Shown: positions 5,802 through 48,107 of the stretch, in pieces
Numbering within the stretch: the first letter of the stretch is position 1
Layout of the letters: every line of letters begins with the position of its first letter
Assembly: GCA_039636785.1 (NCBI GenBank)
Contig: CP144169.1
Location: forward strand, 1,984,001 to 2,048,000
DNA from: Micrococcaceae bacterium Sec5.7
GTDB lineage: Bacteria > Actinomycetota > Actinomycetes > Actinomycetales > Micrococcaceae
Direction of reading: 5' to 3'
DNA length: 64,000 nt
Made by a program: the position numbers and the translations under genes
Notes under the pieces: model-generated
The model's input: the letters and a program-made list of their open reading frames with translations, nothing else
Databases searched by the model: none
What the model was told of the DNA's origin: nothing

Positions 5802-6824
5802 TCAGCGTCCGAGGTTGGTCAGCCAGGTGAGCATGTCCTTGTCCTGGTGCCAGAGCGGCATGGCGTCGGGTGGCGTGACGTTGGTGAAAGCGCTCTGGAG
5901 TGCTCTTCTCTTCATCTCTCCGTCGATGCGGGCGTAGATCTCGGTGGTCTTCAGATCGGCGTGGCCGAGGATGTCTCGGATGTAGACGAGGTTGACTCCG
6001 GCTTGAAGCAAGTGCATGGCCTTGCTGTGCCTGAGGGTGTGTGGCGAGATCGTGTCCGGCAATGCCGCCGGGTCGGCTTCCCTCGCGGCCGTTACGTGCT
6101 TATCGAGGATGTAGGCGATGCCGGTACGGGTCAATTTCTTGCCACCTTGGTTGGGGAAAAGCGACCGGGTCCTGCTGGCGGGGCCGGTGAGGCCGGCACC
6201 GTCGGCGTAACGCTGGACCAGGGCGACTGTCGGGATCATCAGCGGCACGATCCTGGTTTTGTTGCCTTTGCCAGTGAGTTTTACGGTTGCGGGAGGATCG
6301 GCCCGCAGGTCGCCGAAGGTCAGGTCGGCGATCTCTTGGACCCTGGCGCCGGTGTCATACATCAGCGCCAGCAGTGCGAGATCGCGTCTCCCAGAAGGTC
6401 TGCTGGTGTCGGGCTGGTCGAGGATCAGCCGGATCCCGTCGACCGAGAGGTGGCGGGGTGGGGCGGTGGTGGTCTTCTTCTTTGGTATCGCCAGGACACG
6501 CTGGTACTGCCCGATCCGTTCGACATCTCGGGCTTGCAGGTAGCGGCAGAACGACCGGATCGCTGCCAGTCGCTGGTTGCGGGTCGCTGGGACGCAGCCC
6601 CGCTCGGCCTCGAGCCAGGTCAGGAATCGTTCCACAAGGTCTTTGGTCAACAGGTCGCACGTCATGTGCTCGGGGGTAATGTCCTCGTGGGCCTTGCAGT
6701 ACCTGAGGAACAAAGCGAAGGTGTCTCGGTAGGACCTGATTGTGTTCGTTGCTGAGCCGACCTCGCCGGGCAGGAACCGGGCGAGGAACTCGCTGAGGTA
6801 GTGCTGGAAGTCGTGAGTGGTCAT
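5802..6824 (-). CDS. Tyrosine recombinase/integrase, second of a coupled pair
   Basis: A 340-residue protein starting at the ATG at 6824. It has an N-terminal SAM-like core-binding domain (residues about 8-110) and a C-terminal catalytic domain with the tyrosine-recombinase residues in order: Arg in TGARVQEI, Lys in GKGNKTRIVPL, His-x-x-Arg in PHTLRHS, His in ILGHADL and the nucleophile Tyr in TTEIYAR. The gene overlaps its upstream neighbour by 4 nt (ATGA). Tandem overlapping recombinases in one orientation are the hallmark of RIT (recombinase in trio) elements. The catalytic set is complete, so the protein could be active. Confidence 0.88.
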   Translation of the reverse strand: MTTHDFQHYLSEFLARFLPGEVGSATNTIRSYRDTFALFLRYCKAHEDITPEHMTCDLLTKDLVERFLTWLEAERGCVPATRNQRLAAIRSFCRYLQARDVERIGQYQRVLAIPKKKTTTAPPRHLSVDGIRLILDQPDTSRPSGRRDLALLALMYDTGARVQEIADLTFGDLRADPPATVKLTGKGNKTRIVPLMIPTVALVQRYADGAGLTGPASRTRSLFPNQGGKKLTRTGIAYILDKHVTAAREADPAALPDTISPHTLRHSKAMHLLQAGVNLVYIRDILGHADLKTTEIYARIDGEMKRRALQSAFTNVTPPDAMPLWHQDKDMLTWLTNLGR

Positions 6825-7819
6825 TCGGGCTCGCCTCCTGGGATGACGCGCGAGGCGATGGCGCTCATAGCGGCGGTGACTTCGGGGAACATGTCCGGGA
6901 TCAGGCGGACGTATTGGCCGGTTGCCGTCACCGAGGCGTGGCCGAGATAGGTGGCCAGGGTCGGGAGCGCCCAGTAGACATCGGCGCCCTGGTCGACCAT
7001 GGCTTTGAGCGAGTAGACGGCGAAGGAGTGCCGAAGATCGTGTACACGGGGGCCATGACCACGGCCGCCGTGCGAGATGCCCGCCGCCCACAGGGTCTTC
7101 CTGAACCATCTGTAGATGGTGTCGGGGGCGATGGGCCGGCCGTCTCTGTGGGTGAAGAACCGTGTGTCGTGGTCGGCGGTGAATAGCCGCGGTCCGGTGG
7201 CGTCATAGCGGCGCATGATGTCGGCCATCGTCGGCGAGATGGGGACGAGGCGGTCCTGATCGAACTTCGCGTGGCGGACGGTCAGGCAGCAGTTGTCGAG
7301 ATCGACGTCACCGCGGGTCAGGTTCAGCGCCTCGGACACCCGCAGGCCGCACCCATACAGGAGCCTGATCAAGACTGGCAGCAGGACTGGCATGACCGAG
7401 GGCGCTTTGGCCTCGAGCCGGTCGCAGGCGGCGAAGAGTTGGTCGAGCTCGTGTCGGGTGAATATGTATGGAGCGAACGATTCTCGGTCGCCCCGATGCT
7501 TTAGGGTCTGCGGGAACGCCACCGGCAGGCCCTCTGCGGCCAGATAGCTGAGGAACTGGTTCGTGTGCACGACCCGTTTGTGTTGGTTGCTGCGACGCTC
7601 GTTGGGCCGTCTGCTGCACCACTGGTCGACCAGCTCCTGACTTATCGTCAGGTCGGTGTGGCCCGTGGACGCGATGAACCTGGACAGCGCCCGTAACGAC
7701 TGAGGAACGTCGGCGTAGCTCAGGCCTTGTGCGCGCTTGTAGCGAATGAAACCGGCCATGTGGGCGGCGAAGACTGAATCGTAATGCGACGACTGCTCAT
7801 CAATTCTCATTGTCGTCAC
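6821..7819 (-). CDS. Tyrosine recombinase/integrase, first intact member of a coupled pair
   Basis: A 332-residue tyrosine recombinase. The core-binding domain spans roughly residues 15-115, and the catalytic domain shows Arg in GCGLRVSEAL, Lys in RHAKFDQDRLV, His-x-x-Arg in HDLRHSF, His in YLGHASV and Tyr in TGQYVR. The start lies inside the last codons of an upstream frame (stop at 7800), a 20-nt overlap that indicates a third coupled gene once existed upstream. That gene is now reduced to its last 21 codons. Together with the downstream recombinase this forms a probable broken recombinase trio. Confidence 0.88.
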   Translation of the reverse strand: MTTMRIDEQSSHYDSVFAAHMAGFIRYKRAQGLSYADVPQSLRALSRFIASTGHTDLTISQELVDQWCSRRPNERRSNQHKRVVHTNQFLSYLAAEGLPVAFPQTLKHRGDRESFAPYIFTRHELDQLFAACDRLEAKAPSVMPVLLPVLIRLLYGCGLRVSEALNLTRGDVDLDNCCLTVRHAKFDQDRLVPISPTMADIMRRYDATGPRLFTADHDTRFFTHRDGRPIAPDTIYRWFRKTLWAAGISHGGRGHGPRVHDLRHSFAVYSLKAMVDQGADVYWALPTLATYLGHASVTATGQYVRLIPDMFPEVTAAMSAIASRVIPGGEPE

Positions 7820-7934: not shown

Positions 7935-9187
7935 GGCGAATTCAGGCGGTCGTTGCAACGGCGGGTTTTTCTGGTTCAAATAGTAGCCGTTCCATGGCTT
8001 GGGCGGGGGTGATGCCGCCCAGGGTCTTGCGGGGTCGGGCGTTGAGTTCGGCTGCGACTTCGAGCAGCCGCTCGGGTGAGTGCACGGACAGGTCGGTGCC
8101 CTTGGGGAAGTACTGGCGCAGGAGTCCGTTGGTGTTCTCGTTGGTGCCGCGCTGCCAGGGTGAGTGCGGGTCGCAGAAGTAGATGTCCATGTTGGTCGCC
8201 ATGGTGATCTGGCGGTGTTGGGCAAGCTCGGTGCCCTGGTCCCAGGTCAGCGACTTGCACAGGTGCTCCGGCAGGGTCTTGATCCTCGCCAGCAGGCCGT
8301 CACGGACAGCGACGGCGCCGTGGTCATCGGGCAGGTGGACCAGCATCGTAAACCGGGTCTGGCGCTCCACCAGGGTGGCGATGGCCGAGCGGCAGTTCGA
8401 CCCCAGGACCAGATCCCCTTCCCAGTGGCCAGGGACGGCGCGGTCGGCGACCTCGGCGGGTCGTTCGCTGATCAGGATCATGTCCGGGATCTTCCCCGCC
8501 CGCTTGCCGGTGGGGCGTCTTGGCCGCCTCACGGCGCGGCCTGTGCGCAGGTGTTGGTGCAGGTCAGCGCGCAGGTGACCGCGGCCCTGCACATACAGCG
8601 CCTGGTAGATCGTCTCGGGACACACTTGCATCTCCGCTCGGTCCGGGAACGTCGTGGCGAGGTGGTCACTGATCTGCTCGGGACTCCACTTCACGCACAA
8701 CTTGGCCTGTACCAGGGATGCCAGTTCCAGGTCATCGAACTTGCTGGCCTTGGGTCGGTGACCGCGCAGCTCGGCCCGTTTCTGCGCCGCATACGGCGCA
8801 TACTTTCCCCGCCCCCGCGCGCCCGTCCCGGGGCCGTTACGGCGCAGTTCACGGCTGACCGTCGATGCAGACCGCTTGAGCTGCGCTGCGATCGCCCGCA
8901 CACTTATTCCGGCCAGGTGCAGGTCCGCGATCTGCAGTCGGTCTTCCAGGCACAGGTACCGGCCCGAAGGTTCGGGTTTCTTGCGCGGGATCCGCCCGCC
9001 GGTTGCTTGACGCCAATGACGGCCAGTTCGTCGATCCACTCCAACAGCCTCGCACGCCGCGATCAGCGTCGAGCCCTGGGCCATCAACACCCAGAACCGG
9101 GCCTCCTTTTCGATCCGTTCCTTCTTCGACAACATGGGCAACACCTCACAATAAAAAGGGGTGTTGCAACGACCGATTGAACTCGCC
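7935..9187 (-). mobile_element. IS30-family insertion sequence, copy 1 (1,253 bp)
   Basis: The element is bounded by imperfect terminal inverted repeats, ggcgaattcaggcggtcgtt at the left and the complement of ggcgagttcaatcggtcgtt at the right, both running into gttgcaac. The target duplication is ATC (7932-7934 and 9188-9190). It inserted at the centre of a palindrome. Copies 2, 3 and 4 have the same length, the same termini and the same encoded protein, so all are recent. Confidence 0.95.
7942..9135 (-). CDS. IS30-family transposase (copy 1)
   Basis: A 397-residue transposase. The start is the ATG at 9135 with GAGGTG just upstream; a longer frame into the terminal repeat is unlikely to be translated. 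An N-terminal helix-turn-helix (about residues 73-101, AGISVRAIAAQLKRSASTVS) binds the ends. The catalytic DDE triad is D241 (GDLVLG), D299 (WDQGTE) and E333 (NENTNG), giving the DD(33)E spacing of the IS30 family. It catalyses cut-and-copy transposition through a circular intermediate in known relatives. It is intact. Confidence 0.95.
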   Translation of the reverse strand: MLSKKERIEKEARFWVLMAQGSTLIAACEAVGVDRRTGRHWRQATGGRIPRKKPEPSGRYLCLEDRLQIADLHLAGISVRAIAAQLKRSASTVSRELRRNGPGTGARGRGKYAPYAAQKRAELRGHRPKASKFDDLELASLVQAKLCVKWSPEQISDHLATTFPDRAEMQVCPETIYQALYVQGRGHLRADLHQHLRTGRAVRRPRRPTGKRAGKIPDMILISERPAEVADRAVPGHWEGDLVLGSNCRSAIATLVERQTRFTMLVHLPDDHGAVAVRDGLLARIKTLPEHLCKSLTWDQGTELAQHRQITMATNMDIYFCDPHSPWQRGTNENTNGLLRQYFPKGTDLSVHSPERLLEVAAELNARPRKTLGGITPAQAMERLLFEPEKPAVATTA

Positions 9188-9259
9188 ATCCCCTAACGGG
9201 CGCCTGTGTAGGCGCATTGAGGGCGCTGCCGTTGCGCCCCGCCATGCGCCGTGCTGTGG

Positions 9260-10798: not shown

Positions 10799-11410
10799 AT
10801 GGTCAGTAAATGGACGACCGAAGCGAGCAGTTTTGTGCTCGAGGATCGCTGGATCCAGGTGCGAGCTGACCGCTGCACTGGATCTGACGGTCAGGTGATC
10901 GACCCCTATTACGTCATTTGTGCGAGCGACTGGGTGTCGATCGTTCCGGTAACTGACGACGGGAAGGTATTGGTAATTGAGGAGTATCACCATGGTGGCG
11001 GTCTGGTCGCTCCCGGTCTTCCTGGTGGAGGGATCGAAGACGGCGAGGATCCAGCGACCGCAGCTGAGCGAGAACTTCTCGAGGAAACTGGATATCGCCC
11101 CTCACTGCTGTTGGCGGTCGGAAGTGCCTACGCGAATTGGGGAAACCAGGACAACCTCATCCATTACTTTGTTGCGCTCGGATGCGAACGCGTCGGGGAA
11201 CAGTCACTCGATTTGACCGAAGAGATCGAAGTTCGCCTCGAACGCATGCAAGATATCCTCCAGCCAGGCTTCTTCAAGCAAAGCTTCCATCTTGCCAACA
11301 TCCTTCTCGTACTTCCCCACTTGCAACTACCCAATTGCGGATGGCCGGCTTCCGGAGCAAAGTTGACCGTGGCTGGTGAGATGCCCGAAAAACCTGGCAC
11401 CGTCGCGTAA
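10799..11410 (+). CDS. Nudix hydrolase, ADP-ribose pyrophosphatase-like
   Basis: A 203-residue protein with a perfect Nudix box at residues 77-98 (G77, E83, R91, E92, E95, E96, G98). The overall layout (N-terminal beta domain, VLVIEEYHHG before the box, APGLPGGGIEDGE at its start) resembles ADP-ribose/ADP-sugar pyrophosphatases, but the substrate is not certain. The stop codon lies 6 bp before IS30 copy 2, so the insertion spared the gene. It is monocistronic. Confidence 0.88.
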   Translation: MVSKWTTEASSFVLEDRWIQVRADRCTGSDGQVIDPYYVICASDWVSIVPVTDDGKVLVIEEYHHGGGLVAPGLPGGGIEDGEDPATAAERELLEETGYRPSLLLAVGSAYANWGNQDNLIHYFVALGCERVGEQSLDLTEEIEVRLERMQDILQPGFFKQSFHLANILLVLPHLQLPNCGWPASGAKLTVAGEMPEKPGTVA

Positions 11411-11416
11411 GCGGAA

Positions 11417-12669
11417 GGCGAGTTCAATCGGTCGTTGCAACACCCCTTTTTATTGTGAGGTGTTGCCCATGTTGTCGAAGAAGGAACGGATCGAAAAGGA
11501 GGCCCGGTTCTGGGTGTTGATGGCCCAGGGCTCGACGCTGATCGCGGCGTGCGAGGCTGTTGGAGTGGATCGACGAACTGGCCGTCATTGGCGTCAAGCA
11601 ACCGGCGGGCGGATCCCGCGCAAGAAACCCGAACCTTCGGGCCGGTACCTGTGCCTGGAAGACCGACTGCAGATCGCGGACCTGCACCTGGCCGGAATAA
11701 GTGTGCGGGCGATCGCAGCGCAGCTCAAGCGGTCTGCATCGACGGTCAGCCGTGAACTGCGCCGTAACGGCCCCGGGACGGGCGCGCGGGGGCGGGGAAA
11801 GTATGCGCCGTATGCGGCGCAGAAACGGGCCGAGCTGCGCGGTCACCGACCCAAGGCCAGCAAGTTCGATGACCTGGAACTGGCATCCCTGGTACAGGCC
11901 AAGTTGTGCGTGAAGTGGAGTCCCGAGCAGATCAGTGACCACCTCGCCACGACGTTCCCGGACCGAGCGGAGATGCAAGTGTGTCCCGAGACGATCTACC
12001 AGGCGCTGTATGTGCAGGGCCGCGGTCACCTGCGCGCTGACCTGCACCAACACCTGCGCACAGGCCGCGCCGTGAGGCGGCCAAGACGCCCCACCGGCAA
12101 GCGGGCGGGGAAGATCCCGGACATGATCCTGATCAGCGAACGACCCGCCGAGGTCGCCGACCGCGCCGTCCCTGGCCACTGGGAAGGGGATCTGGTCCTG
12201 GGGTCGAACTGCCGCTCGGCCATCGCCACCCTGGTGGAGCGCCAGACCCGGTTTACGATGCTGGTCCACCTGCCCGATGACCACGGCGCCGTCGCTGTCC
12301 GTGACGGCCTGCTGGCGAGGATCAAGACCCTGCCGGAGCACCTGTGCAAGTCGCTGACCTGGGACCAGGGCACCGAGCTTGCCCAACACCGCCAGATCAC
12401 CATGGCGACCAACATGGACATCTACTTCTGCGACCCGCACTCACCCTGGCAGCGCGGCACCAACGAGAACACCAACGGACTCCTGCGCCAGTACTTCCCC
12501 AAGGGCACCGACCTGTCCGTGCACTCACCCGAGCGGCTGCTCGAAGTCGCAGCCGAACTCAACGCCCGACCCCGCAAGACCCTGGGCGGCATCACCCCCG
12601 CCCAAGCCATGGAACGGCTACTATTTGAACCAGAAAAACCCGCCGTTGCAACGACCGCCTGAATTCGCC
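11417..12669 (+). mobile_element. IS30-family insertion sequence, copy 2 (1,253 bp)
   Basis: The element runs from ggcgagttcaatcggtcg to the complement of ggcgaattcaggcggtcg. The target duplication is GAA (11414-11416 and 12670-12672). Rejoined flanks read gcgtaagcggaaccctctgcggg, a degenerate version of the palindrome targeted by the other three copies. Length and encoded protein match copy 1. Confidence 0.95.
11469..12662 (+). CDS. IS30-family transposase (copy 2)
   Basis: A 397-residue protein identical in translation to the copy 1 transposase, with the N-terminal helix-turn-helix and D241/D299/E333 triad intact. The ATG at 11469 follows a GAGGTG ribosome site. A longer frame reading in from the neighbouring Nudix 3' region exists but crosses the terminal repeat and is not considered the natural start. 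Confidence 0.95.
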   Translation: MLSKKERIEKEARFWVLMAQGSTLIAACEAVGVDRRTGRHWRQATGGRIPRKKPEPSGRYLCLEDRLQIADLHLAGISVRAIAAQLKRSASTVSRELRRNGPGTGARGRGKYAPYAAQKRAELRGHRPKASKFDDLELASLVQAKLCVKWSPEQISDHLATTFPDRAEMQVCPETIYQALYVQGRGHLRADLHQHLRTGRAVRRPRRPTGKRAGKIPDMILISERPAEVADRAVPGHWEGDLVLGSNCRSAIATLVERQTRFTMLVHLPDDHGAVAVRDGLLARIKTLPEHLCKSLTWDQGTELAQHRQITMATNMDIYFCDPHSPWQRGTNENTNGLLRQYFPKGTDLSVHSPERLLEVAAELNARPRKTLGGITPAQAMERLLFEPEKPAVATTA

Positions 12670-22898: not shown

Positions 22899-22963
22899 AG
22901 AATTGTCTTGAAAACACCGCGCCGCAGAATATTGCAGGCGTGAGAATGTGTCCGGTAAAGGAT

Positions 22964-24216
22964 GGCGAGTTCAATCGGTCGTTGCAACACCCCTTTTTAT
23001 TGTGAGGTGTTGCCCATGTTGTCGAAGAAGGAACGGATCGAAAAGGAGGCCCGGTTCTGGGTGTTGATGGCCCAGGGCTCGACGCTGATCGCGGCGTGCG
23101 AGGCTGTTGGAGTGGATCGACGAACTGGCCGTCATTGGCGTCAAGCAACCGGCGGGCGGATCCCGCGCAAGAAACCCGAACCTTCGGGCCGGTACCTGTG
23201 CCTGGAAGACCGACTGCAGATCGCGGACCTGCACCTGGCCGGAATAAGTGTGCGGGCGATCGCAGCGCAGCTCAAGCGGTCTGCATCGACGGTCAGCCGT
23301 GAACTGCGCCGTAACGGCCCCGGGACGGGCGCGCGGGGGCGGGGAAAGTATGCGCCGTATGCGGCGCAGAAACGGGCCGAGCTGCGCGGTCACCGACCCA
23401 AGGCCAGCAAGTTCGATGACCTGGAACTGGCATCCCTGGTACAGGCCAAGTTGTGCGTGAAGTGGAGTCCCGAGCAGATCAGTGACCACCTCGCCACGAC
23501 GTTCCCGGACCGAGCGGAGATGCAAGTGTGTCCCGAGACGATCTACCAGGCGCTGTATGTGCAGGGCCGCGGTCACCTGCGCGCTGACCTGCACCAACAC
23601 CTGCGCACAGGCCGCGCCGTGAGGCGGCCAAGACGCCCCACCGGCAAGCGGGCGGGGAAGATCCCGGACATGATCCTGATCAGCGAACGACCCGCCGAGG
23701 TCGCCGACCGCGCCGTCCCTGGCCACTGGGAAGGGGATCTGGTCCTGGGGTCGAACTGCCGCTCGGCCATCGCCACCCTGGTGGAGCGCCAGACCCGGTT
23801 TACGATGCTGGTCCACCTGCCCGATGACCACGGCGCCGTCGCTGTCCGTGACGGCCTGCTGGCGAGGATCAAGACCCTGCCGGAGCACCTGTGCAAGTCG
23901 CTGACCTGGGACCAGGGCACCGAGCTTGCCCAACACCGCCAGATCACCATGGCGACCAACATGGACATCTACTTCTGCGACCCGCACTCACCCTGGCAGC
24001 GCGGCACCAACGAGAACACCAACGGACTCCTGCGCCAGTACTTCCCCAAGGGCACCGACCTGTCCGTGCACTCACCCGAGCGGCTGCTCGAAGTCGCAGC
24101 CGAACTCAACGCCCGACCCCGCAAGACCCTGGGCGGCATCACCCCCGCCCAAGCCATGGAACGGCTACTATTTGAACCAGAAAAACCCGCCGTTGCAACG
24201 ACCGCCTGAATTCGCC
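22964..24216 (+). mobile_element. IS30-family insertion sequence, copy 3 (1,253 bp)
   Basis: The target duplication is GAT (22961-22963 and 24217-24219). The flanks rejoin to gtccggtaaaggatcctttaccggac, a perfect 26-bp palindrome, with the insertion at its centre. This is the clearest view of the target. Length, termini and protein match the other copies. Confidence 0.96.
23016..24209 (+). CDS. IS30-family transposase (copy 3)
   Basis: A 397-residue intact transposase, same protein as copies 1, 2 and 4 (helix-turn-helix at 73-101, triad D241/D299/E333). The ATG at 23016 follows GAGGTG. The unbroken frame and unchanged protein sequence indicate recent movement and probable continued competence. 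Confidence 0.95.
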   Translation: MLSKKERIEKEARFWVLMAQGSTLIAACEAVGVDRRTGRHWRQATGGRIPRKKPEPSGRYLCLEDRLQIADLHLAGISVRAIAAQLKRSASTVSRELRRNGPGTGARGRGKYAPYAAQKRAELRGHRPKASKFDDLELASLVQAKLCVKWSPEQISDHLATTFPDRAEMQVCPETIYQALYVQGRGHLRADLHQHLRTGRAVRRPRRPTGKRAGKIPDMILISERPAEVADRAVPGHWEGDLVLGSNCRSAIATLVERQTRFTMLVHLPDDHGAVAVRDGLLARIKTLPEHLCKSLTWDQGTELAQHRQITMATNMDIYFCDPHSPWQRGTNENTNGLLRQYFPKGTDLSVHSPERLLEVAAELNARPRKTLGGITPAQAMERLLFEPEKPAVATTA

Positions 24217-31913: not shown

Positions 31914-33166
31914 GGCGAATTCAGGCGGTCGTTGCAACGGCGGGTTTTTCTGGTTCAAATAGTAGCCGTTCCATGGCTTGGGCGGGGGTGATGCCGCCCA
32001 GGGTCTTGCGGGGTCGGGCGTTGAGTTCGGCTGCGACTTCGAGCAGCCGCTCGGGTGAGTGCACGGACAGGTCGGTGCCCTTGGGGAAGTACTGGCGCAG
32101 GAGTCCGTTGGTGTTCTCGTTGGTGCCGCGCTGCCAGGGTGAGTGCGGGTCGCAGAAGTAGATGTCCATGTTGGTCGCCATGGTGATCTGGCGGTGTTGG
32201 GCAAGCTCGGTGCCCTGGTCCCAGGTCAGCGACTTGCACAGGTGCTCCGGCAGGGTCTTGATCCTCGCCAGCAGGCCGTCACGGACAGCGACGGCGCCGT
32301 GGTCATCGGGCAGGTGGACCAGCATCGTAAACCGGGTCTGGCGCTCCACCAGGGTGGCGATGGCCGAGCGGCAGTTCGACCCCAGGACCAGATCCCCTTC
32401 CCAGTGGCCAGGGACGGCGCGGTCGGCGACCTCGGCGGGTCGTTCGCTGATCAGGATCATGTCCGGGATCTTCCCCGCCCGCTTGCCGGTGGGGCGTCTT
32501 GGCCGCCTCACGGCGCGGCCTGTGCGCAGGTGTTGGTGCAGGTCAGCGCGCAGGTGACCGCGGCCCTGCACATACAGCGCCTGGTAGATCGTCTCGGGAC
32601 ACACTTGCATCTCCGCTCGGTCCGGGAACGTCGTGGCGAGGTGGTCACTGATCTGCTCGGGACTCCACTTCACGCACAACTTGGCCTGTACCAGGGATGC
32701 CAGTTCCAGGTCATCGAACTTGCTGGCCTTGGGTCGGTGACCGCGCAGCTCGGCCCGTTTCTGCGCCGCATACGGCGCATACTTTCCCCGCCCCCGCGCG
32801 CCCGTCCCGGGGCCGTTACGGCGCAGTTCACGGCTGACCGTCGATGCAGACCGCTTGAGCTGCGCTGCGATCGCCCGCACACTTATTCCGGCCAGGTGCA
32901 GGTCCGCGATCTGCAGTCGGTCTTCCAGGCACAGGTACCGGCCCGAAGGTTCGGGTTTCTTGCGCGGGATCCGCCCGCCGGTTGCTTGACGCCAATGACG
33001 GCCAGTTCGTCGATCCACTCCAACAGCCTCGCACGCCGCGATCAGCGTCGAGCCCTGGGCCATCAACACCCAGAACCGGGCCTCCTTTTCGATCCGTTCC
33101 TTCTTCGACAACATGGGCAACACCTCACAATAAAAAGGGGTGTTGCAACGACCGATTGAACTCGCC
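31914..33166 (-). mobile_element. IS30-family insertion sequence, copy 4 (1,253 bp)
   Basis: The target duplication is ATC (31911-31913 and 33167-33169). The rejoined flank cgcccggtgaaggatccctatggggc is an imperfect copy of the palindrome. The element is in minus orientation and matches the other copies in length, termini and encoded protein. Confidence 0.95.
31921..33114 (-). CDS. IS30-family transposase (copy 4)
   Basis: A 397-residue intact transposase with the same sequence as copies 1-3, DDE triad D241/D299/E333 and the N-terminal helix-turn-helix. The ATG at 33114 follows the GAGGTG site; the longer frame past 33166 includes host sequence and is not the natural start. Confidence 0.95.
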   Translation of the reverse strand: MLSKKERIEKEARFWVLMAQGSTLIAACEAVGVDRRTGRHWRQATGGRIPRKKPEPSGRYLCLEDRLQIADLHLAGISVRAIAAQLKRSASTVSRELRRNGPGTGARGRGKYAPYAAQKRAELRGHRPKASKFDDLELASLVQAKLCVKWSPEQISDHLATTFPDRAEMQVCPETIYQALYVQGRGHLRADLHQHLRTGRAVRRPRRPTGKRAGKIPDMILISERPAEVADRAVPGHWEGDLVLGSNCRSAIATLVERQTRFTMLVHLPDDHGAVAVRDGLLARIKTLPEHLCKSLTWDQGTELAQHRQITMATNMDIYFCDPHSPWQRGTNENTNGLLRQYFPKGTDLSVHSPERLLEVAAELNARPRKTLGGITPAQAMERLLFEPEKPAVATTA

Positions 33167-33219
33167 ATCCCTATGGGGCGGACATACGTGAACGTTTTGC
33201 GCATCGGTAGGCTAGGTCC

Positions 33220-44849: not shown

Positions 44850-45734
44850 ATGAAGAAGAAGATTTTCGGCGCCGCCGTCCTGATCGTCGGCACCGGCGCC
44901 GCGCTGGCCGCGGCCGCGATCCCGGCCGCGTCAGTTACCGCGTCCCCCGAGCCCGTCCCAGGGATCATGCGCCAGGCAGAGGCCTACGCATCAGCCGATC
45001 CGATCGCCGAAAAGGGCATGCAGGAGGCCGTCCGGCTCTGCATGGCCAAGGCCGGCTTCGACTACACGCCGCCCAGCTCCGTCATGACACTGGACCTCAG
45101 CGGAGCCATTGGATTCAAACGGCTCTCGGTCGAGGCCGCCAAAGCCAGCGGCTACGCCAGCACCGGGCCGCAAGGACCCCGCGAGCCGGCTCCCGAGTCC
45201 GCGGACGGCAAACTCTTCGCCGATCCGGCCTTCACCACGGCACTCACCGGGCCTGGCGACACCTCGTCAACGACCACGGTGGGCGGTATGGGAACCTCCT
45301 CCGGCGGGTGCCGCGGCGAGGCTATGACTCAGATTTACGGCAGCGCTGAAAATTACATGCTCGCCACCGGAATCGCCTACAACTCGTTCTTCCCCGCGAG
45401 CCTGTCCGCTTCCGGTGACGCGGGAATTGCCAAAGCCATCAGTGACTGGGCGGCCTGCATGAAAGAAACCCCCTACTCCTCCCTCGCGAACCCGCAGCAG
45501 GCCGCCGATGCGGGAAAGGCGGCGGGGGGTCAGGAAGAGTTCAGAATCGCCGTGACCGACGCAGTCTGCCGGGACAAGACCGGGTTCCACCCCACGCTGG
45601 ACAAAGTCCTGGACAAATACCTGACAACCCGCATGCAGGAACTGGCCCCGCAAATCGCGAAGGTCAAAGAGATCCGCCGCACCGCTGACGCCAACGCAGC
45701 AACCTTGGAGGCCGAGGCCACTGCATCGAAATAG
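44850..45734 (+). CDS. Secreted protein of unknown function
   Basis: A 294-residue protein. Signal peptide: KKK, then FGAAVLIVGTGAALAAAAIPAASVTA with cleavage near residue 31. The mature part has a Cys in VRLCMAKAGFDY, another in SGGCRGEAM, WAACMKETPY and AVCRDKTGF, four cysteines that could form two disulphides. The family is not recognised, though the Cys-spaced helical pattern (AVRLCMAKAGF, ..WAACMKE.., AVCRDKTG) is seen in other exported actinobacterial proteins. It follows a two-component system. Confidence 0.75.
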   Translation: MKKKIFGAAVLIVGTGAALAAAAIPAASVTASPEPVPGIMRQAEAYASADPIAEKGMQEAVRLCMAKAGFDYTPPSSVMTLDLSGAIGFKRLSVEAAKASGYASTGPQGPREPAPESADGKLFADPAFTTALTGPGDTSSTTTVGGMGTSSGGCRGEAMTQIYGSAENYMLATGIAYNSFFPASLSASGDAGIAKAISDWAACMKETPYSSLANPQQAADAGKAAGGQEEFRIAVTDAVCRDKTGFHPTLDKVLDKYLTTRMQELAPQIAKVKEIRRTADANAATLEAEATASK

Positions 45735-46344
45735 TGGGGTATGGCGGAAAGCCGGCGGCGTCCTGTCAGCATCGGGGGTGACAGGACGCCGTTAGACACG
45801 TTCCGATTGATTGCCGGTGGTACTGCGCTGCTGCAGAAAGATTTCCCTGGTTCCCCCGCCGGAACGGTCGTGTCGTGGACGTCAGTGCGGACGTCCGTGG
45901 TGAACTCCGCGCCCTAAGCTTTGACGTCCAAGATGGCCGCCCAGGCGTATCCGACATTCCAGACCTCGGGACACGGCCGCACCCCGAAAATCAGGTCACC
46001 GTCCGCAGCTTACAGGCCGAGACGGCCGGTCACTATTGGGGGTGAGCGGCCTCTCTACCAAGTCCTGCTCCTTTCCCGTGAAGGACGCCGGCGCCAAACG
46101 GCGGTGCGATCCTGCCGCTGGAGCAGGGTCGCGGGTGGGCTTGGTTCAAGCCGTCTCAGTGGTTCTGAACCAAGTTGACATTGTCACCACGCTGTATGTC
46201 ACGGTGCCAACTAACTTGTCAGTTGTGCCAACTAGGTCGTCAACTCACACCGAGCCGCCAACTAGGCCAGTCTTCGCCAACTTTTCCGTCCCGTTTCGCC
46301 AACTAACGGTCAAACCGCCAACTAGCTTCCGATCTCACAAAAGT
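45735..46344. repeat. Intergenic region with a 7-unit CCAACTA repeat array at 46205-46324
   Basis: Six gccaact units start at 46205, 46227, 46257, 46276, 46298 and 46317 (five continue as gccaacta; a degraded tcaact lies at 46239), spaced about 19-30 bp. Two short inverted repeats precede the array: ggcttggttcaagcc and ggttctgaacc. Multi-unit ends of this kind occur in IS21-type elements and in iteron arrays; no transposase gene is near. The rest of the region holds no convincing gene. Confidence 0.6.

Positions 46345-48107
<1,763 letters not shown>

Follow-up and report, generated by a model that had tools for sequence, protein, structure and literature searches.

The array of GCCAACT repeats next to nrdF in the genome of Micrococcaceae bacterium Sec5.7 very probably consists of two abutting right ends of Tn7-like transposons, one (type A) adjoining nrdF and the other (type C) lying behind it, with the 3′ end of nrdF as the attachment site. 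If so, a protein-coding attachment gene, nrdF, can be named for members of an actinobacterial branch of Tn7-like elements that is widespread and experimentally untouched.

A repeat array adjoining nrdF

Within the 64,000-nucleotide stretch of DNA analysed here (the window, to which all positions given without a locus name refer), six exact GCCAACT units start at 46206, 46227, 46257, 46276, 46298 and 46317, in steps of 21, 30, 19, 22 and 19 bp. The array spans 118 bp (46206-46323); five of the six units extend as GCCAACTA and one as GCCAACTT. The whole window contains 13 GCCAACT on both strands, whereas 200 dinucleotide-shuffled versions average 8.2, and the densest cluster per 120 bp has six units in the window and at most two in the shuffles. 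The array described in a first-pass annotation is thus real, with six exact units at steps of 19-30 bp, beyond all 200 shuffles. That annotation saw no gene nearby, but the nrdF stop codon is only 21 bp from the last unit, and this adjacency is the key to understanding the array. A blastn search detected no second copy in the genome.

The attachment gene nrdF (46345..47319, reverse strand) encodes the beta subunit of a class Ib ribonucleotide reductase; the ORF shares up to 98% identity with relatives, and a plasmid-borne relative is annotated as nrdF. Read on the nrdF strand, the order is the stop codon TAG, ACTTT, TGTGAGATCGGAAGC, four AGTTGGC, TGTGAGTTGACGACC, two AGTTGGC and, at the end, CCGTGACA. 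ACTTT, the 5 nt between the stop and the element end (46340..46344, reverse strand), is the expected target-site duplication, judging from the sequence and from 5-bp duplications at this place in relatives. Unlike end types were labelled A to G by repeat sequence. The type-A right end (46256..46339, reverse strand) comprises TGTGAGATCGGAAGC and the four AGTTGGC, which resemble transposase-binding sites. The type-C right end (46196..46249, reverse strand) comprises TGTGAGTTGACGACC and two AGTTGGCAC sites before its terminal CCGTGACA, and differs from type C by one mismatch in 25 positions. Both modules begin with TGTGAG. An alignment of the type-A ends of the window and 10 relatives, in which some rows are partial, is conserved across the four sites and divergent beyond them. 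A TGTGAG terminus with four putative transposase sites, conserved in 10 relatives, is consistent with a Tn7-like element end.

There are no tns genes among the window ORFs, and the window therefore holds orphan ends rather than an element. A relative of the selector gene described below was not detected in this genome, nor was a left end with the expected ACTTT duplication in the 86 kb searched downstream of nrdF. As neither a left end nor tns genes of this family were found, the ends are orphaned and probably immobile in this genome. Colinearity with three other genomes, at their far flank, restarts ~0.3 kb left of the window, so that an accessory stretch of ~46 kb separates nrdF from this flank. 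The suggestion that the array marks a lost transposon with a multi-unit end, where accessory DNA meets core DNA, was borne out.

Ends behind nrdF in related genomes

The host genus is Arthrobacter-like and belongs to the Micrococcaceae, judging from named relatives. When 198 of its genomes were searched at the DNA level, parts of this array turned up immediately after nrdF in further genomes. After de-duplication, 25 genomes have ends, and in 21 of these TGTGAG or TGTAGA begins 5-8 nt past the nrdF stop, as at a fixed attachment site; in the remaining four the end begins 11, 17, 46 and 53 nt past it. Many relatives have no end, and their empty site consists of the nrdF stop codon followed by a plain hairpin. 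Among the 78 readable loci out of 80, a strict count of core sites, which misses degenerate or other end types, was passed by 4 of 44 in L063-L107 and by none of 34 in L108-L142, compared with 1 of 13,517 background windows. The type-C module occurs in relatives either directly after nrdF or within stacks of ends, and an end related to type C bounds a complete element in genome G107.

Two other arrangements were noted at nrdF. In Paenarthrobacter sp. DKR-5 (L097, 10980-15342), a 4.3-kb element has 25-bp inverted ends starting with TGTAGA; no tns gene was seen in it, and we read it as a non-autonomous member, with mismatched flanking 5 nt. In three Microbacterium loci (L114, L120 and L134), TGTGCGGCGTC and then GTTGGCAC-like repeats follow right after nrdF and may represent another type of end in Microbacteriaceae.

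TnsABC operons with a long selector gene

ORF clustering of 98 nrdF-downstream regions recovered restriction-modification genes and no shared transposase. The PF06527 (TniQ) profile matched in 2 of 20 genomes, in neither case close to nrdF; it missed the nrdF operons because their selector is too divergent. These operons came to light only via a TnsB query from L044, a TnsA-TnsB-TnsC-TniQ element 267 kb away in the same genome, whose ends start with TGTCC and have the repeat core TTAGTTGA. Within the host genus, 28 of 198 genomes encode a relative of this query, and within the family a second TnsB query has relatives in 32 of 395 genomes. A further heteromeric transposon of this genome, at L043 (C1:1106000-1125999), has Tn402-like tniA-tniB-tniQ and resolvase-like ORFs.

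In ten genomes from three genera (G107, G384, G137, G064, G026, G087, G202, G006, G490 and G035, with G384 and G490 from other genera), a tnsB gene accompanied by tnsC and a long selector gene lies downstream of nrdF, at a distance of 2.3-50 kb. As in Tn7-like elements generally, the relatives encode TnsA, TnsB, TnsC and a TniQ-family selector within one operon. The operon proteins match TniB and Mu-transpos_C, and the TnsA of G107 matches NCBIfam NF033179 with an E-value of 1.9e-50.

In a tree of 33 TnsB sequences, which excludes G137 (tnsB split in two ORFs) and pieces shorter than 450 residues, 12 sequences form a clade with support of 100/99. Nine of these lie at nrdF, those of G009 and G130 are on unlinked draft contigs, and one is elsewhere, a label that in draft genomes often merely means another contig. 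The last is G109, with an operon of this clade away from nrdF. G290 has a TnsB outside the clade whose gene shares a contig with nrdF and lies ~52 kb downstream of it. The type of the first end after nrdF tracks the TnsB subclade: type A is first in G087, G009 and G130, which have a G087-like TnsB; type B in G006, G035 and G490, with a G006-like TnsB; and type G in G202 and G384, with a G384-like TnsB. By this link, the sequence of the nrdF-proximal type-A end places it in the G087 family.

The gene after tnsC in the nrdF clade encodes ~620-800 residues (371 in the G026 ORF). Its N-terminal part resembles TniQ (97.1%, E 5e-11), and its second part has three to five stretches of the DUF4379 treble-clef zinc finger in all eight proteins scanned. 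The 13 aligned selectors have many cysteines in common. Where a TniQ-like gene was seen in elements outside the clade, it was a short version without the zinc-finger array. The sole relative of known structure that the selector profile detected is a 143-residue DUF4379 protein. Plasmid matches to DUF4379 were partial: in none of 56 records did a single place cover >80% of the selector, and annotation indicated no link to Tns proteins in the two records examined. DUF4379 zinc-finger arrays were also seen joined to an endonuclease-like domain (MTES_1575 or DUF559) in L101 (14285-16036), L238 and L240; these proteins are perhaps related to the second part of the selector.

Complete elements and 5-bp duplications

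Left ends were searched as an inverted terminus followed by the same 5 nt that precede the right end; strict motifs had missed them. Both ends and a 5-bp duplication were recovered in 5 of the 23 genomes tested, a low number often explained by partial coverage of the downstream DNA. The duplications are GTCCG in G490 (45.8 kb), CCTGC in G107 (42.7 kb), CAGGT in G026, CCCTT in G009 (two ends on separate contigs) and CTTGG in G163 (10.6 kb). The far ends are inverted (CTCACA) and the duplicated 5 nt differ between hosts. By a rough estimate, ~0.7 left-end matches are expected by chance, so any single duplication could be a chance match. The five elements are upheld beyond this expectation by the terminal repeats, which match by type within each left/right pair, and by native-looking flanks in four of them. 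G490 has a hairpin just after its left duplication. By eye, the two flanks of G107, when joined, resemble the hairpin of Arthrobacter sp. Hiyo8 (L076), the outer flank of G009 resembles the empty site of G031 (L050), and that of G163 resembles the empty site of Arthrobacter sp. NtRootA1 (L078).

Stacks of unlike ends

Several end types often follow one nrdF; for example, G006 has the order B, G, D, F, E, and G490 has B, G, C, F. Three of the five duplication-verified elements carry foreign types of right end immediately inward of their own: B then G, C, F in G490, A then D in G009, and F then D in G026. The outer flank is native-looking in two of these three. Foreign ends inside an element are at odds with mere older insertions, as these should lie outside it. 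The stack in the window, A then C, is perhaps the same pattern of a foreign end inside an element's own end.

Stacks of unlike ends raise the question of transposon competition at one site. Tn7-type target immunity acts through TnsB bound at ends that are already present, so an nrdF site with a stack would resist several rivals. Tn7 is known to show target immunity (PMC11406308). Elements might thus collect rival right ends next to nrdF, and the stack might confer immunity to several rivals and be a heritable record of invaders that protects the occupant; we regard this idea as speculative and rather unlikely. The same picture would arise if the newest and the oldest element were of equal type and the middle had been lost.

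Alternative explanations for the array

The first-pass annotation proposed an IS21-type end or plasmid iterons. IS21 ends carry several repeats, and an IS21-like end remnant does adjoin the array. At 46134..46180 (forward strand) are two ~24-bp direct repeats. They align with pZXY23 at the istA side of an IS21-type element, whose end has three copies of the repeat (GGTCCTGA-TCAA-C-GTCA), and with a remnant carried by an Arthrobacter sp. U41 plasmid. The identity to the two Arthrobacter plasmids is 78-81% over 53-60 bp, with weak E-values of 1e-3 to 4e-3. The genes istA and istB accompany the similar end on pZXY23 and are absent here. From this modest similarity we consider 46134-46180 a second, separate IS21-like remnant. 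It coincides with the inverted repeats of the annotation: palindromic words are present at 46138-46171, but they are better read as part of the direct repeats. The call of an IS21-type end therefore holds for this adjoining remnant, but the GCCAACT array itself is Tn7-like. That the array is a multi-repeat IS21 end is very unlikely, given that no IS21 genes adjoin it in the window, that no istA/istB were found between matching multi-repeat ends, and that the IS21 examined in this genome (at L044) lacks such repeats at its ends. Moreover, in relatives the ends occupy a single fixed position downstream of nrdF and are followed by TnsABCD elements.

Short, evenly spaced direct repeats beside accessory DNA would also suit the iterons of an integrated plasmid, as a replication or maintenance site. 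However, only 6 of 72,556 plasmid records match the sequence, and the only one that reaches the array has the same kind of end directly after a plasmid-borne nrdF; in Pseudarthrobacter sp. BIM B-2242, a type-A end begins 4 nt past the stop of such a gene. No phage record matched, and no replication initiator gene was seen beside the repeats in relatives or among the genes near the array. Together with the defined TGTGAG termini and the 5-bp duplications in relatives, this leaves the iteron proposal with almost no probability. Several same-orientation modules that all start with TGTGAG could in principle be a stack of tyrosine-recombinase attachment sites with this common core, and the window does encode such recombinases at 5.8-7.8 kb. 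The inverted far ends and the host-specific duplications contradict this, as does the recurrence near nrdF of TnsABCD and not of an integrase, making it highly improbable. A native regulatory or transcription-termination element of nrdF would accord with the position right after the stop codon and with the perfect palindromes of some modules, but many relatives have the plain hairpin in place of the array, complete elements stand between nrdF and such a hairpin, and no terminator-like site was found in 45700-46400. We consider this reading extremely unlikely. All four proposals were rejected for the array in favour of two Tn7-like right ends.

Other genes around nrdF

The accessory stretch downstream of nrdF includes four near-identical ORFs (7942-9189, 11376-12662, 22962-24209 and 31921-33204), one of which was identified as an IS30-family transposase, and one IS30-like copy is adjoined by two overlapping tyrosine-recombinase ORFs (5802-7819). 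On the other side, between nrdF and nrdE and thus inside the nrd operon, an ORF with a NUMOD3 motif (47316-48107, E 2e-16) resembles a free-standing homing endonuclease. A gene that is common downstream of empty sites (taken from L087) has no match in this genome.

By gene content, nrdF looks like a hot spot for defence genes. In five nrdF-downstream islands (L036, L037, L073, L101 and L174), a CBASS-like two-gene set, recognised by eye as nucleotidyltransferase-like and HNH-like genes, lies right behind the ends, and hsdM-, hsdR- and hsdS-like genes occur in 8-10 of 98 nrdF-downstream regions. None of the 10 window proteins scanned matched a defence model. Attachment at nrdF offers a reason why restriction-modification and CBASS-like genes are frequent past nrdF in Arthrobacter and relatives.

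Proposed transposition pathway and comparison with known systems

From these sequence comparisons, we propose nrdF as an attachment gene at which TnsABC transpose under the direction of a selector. The TnsB of intact relatives would recognise the AGTTGG repeats, and TnsA and TnsB would excise the element. We infer that the conserved nrdF end is bound by the TnsD-type selector, with its TniQ-like N-terminus and DUF4379 treble-clef zinc fingers, which via TnsC would direct the element to a point 5-8 nt beyond the nrdF stop, creating a 5-bp duplication. Neither an nrdF attachment site nor a TniQ-DUF4379 selector was found for Tn7-like elements in the literature searched, whose supplementary tables may hold an entry; “nrd” is absent from the main texts of PMC10293859 and PMC8649781. 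The modular zinc-finger second part of the selector invites retargeting studies.

Among known systems, the IS21 family shares multi-repeat ends and has left a remnant end adjoining the array; its repeat sequence is different, and istA/istB were not seen with these ends. The L044 element of the same genome has the same gene set, and its repeats also contain the core TTAGTTGA, but it has TGTCC ends, a short TniQ without a zinc-finger array and a TnsB of another clade. Tn7706 of Rhodococcus erythropolis likewise combines tnsA, tnsB, tniB and tniQ in an actinobacterium, but as described in PMC12915292 it occupies many plasmid places and not one attachment gene. The actinobacterial Tn7-like clade of Benler et al. 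(2021; PMC8649781), as presented in the main text, shares the host group, the TnsA family (NF033179, TnsA_like_Actin) and defence cargo, represented here by restriction-modification and CBASS-like genes named by eye; in that text the clade is experimentally uncharacterised and its attachment gene is not named. In Tn7 itself (TnsABCDE), TnsD binds the end of glmS and insertion occurs past the gene stop with a 5-bp duplication (PMC2918618). The nrdF elements resemble Tn7 in having TnsA, TnsB, TnsC and a TniQ-family selector, several transposase sites per end, a 5-bp duplication and insertion just past the stop of an essential gene. They differ from it in that the attachment gene is nrdF, in that insertion is 5-8 nt past the stop in most genomes (~20 bp in Tn7), and in that the second part of the selector is a DUF4379 zinc-finger array.
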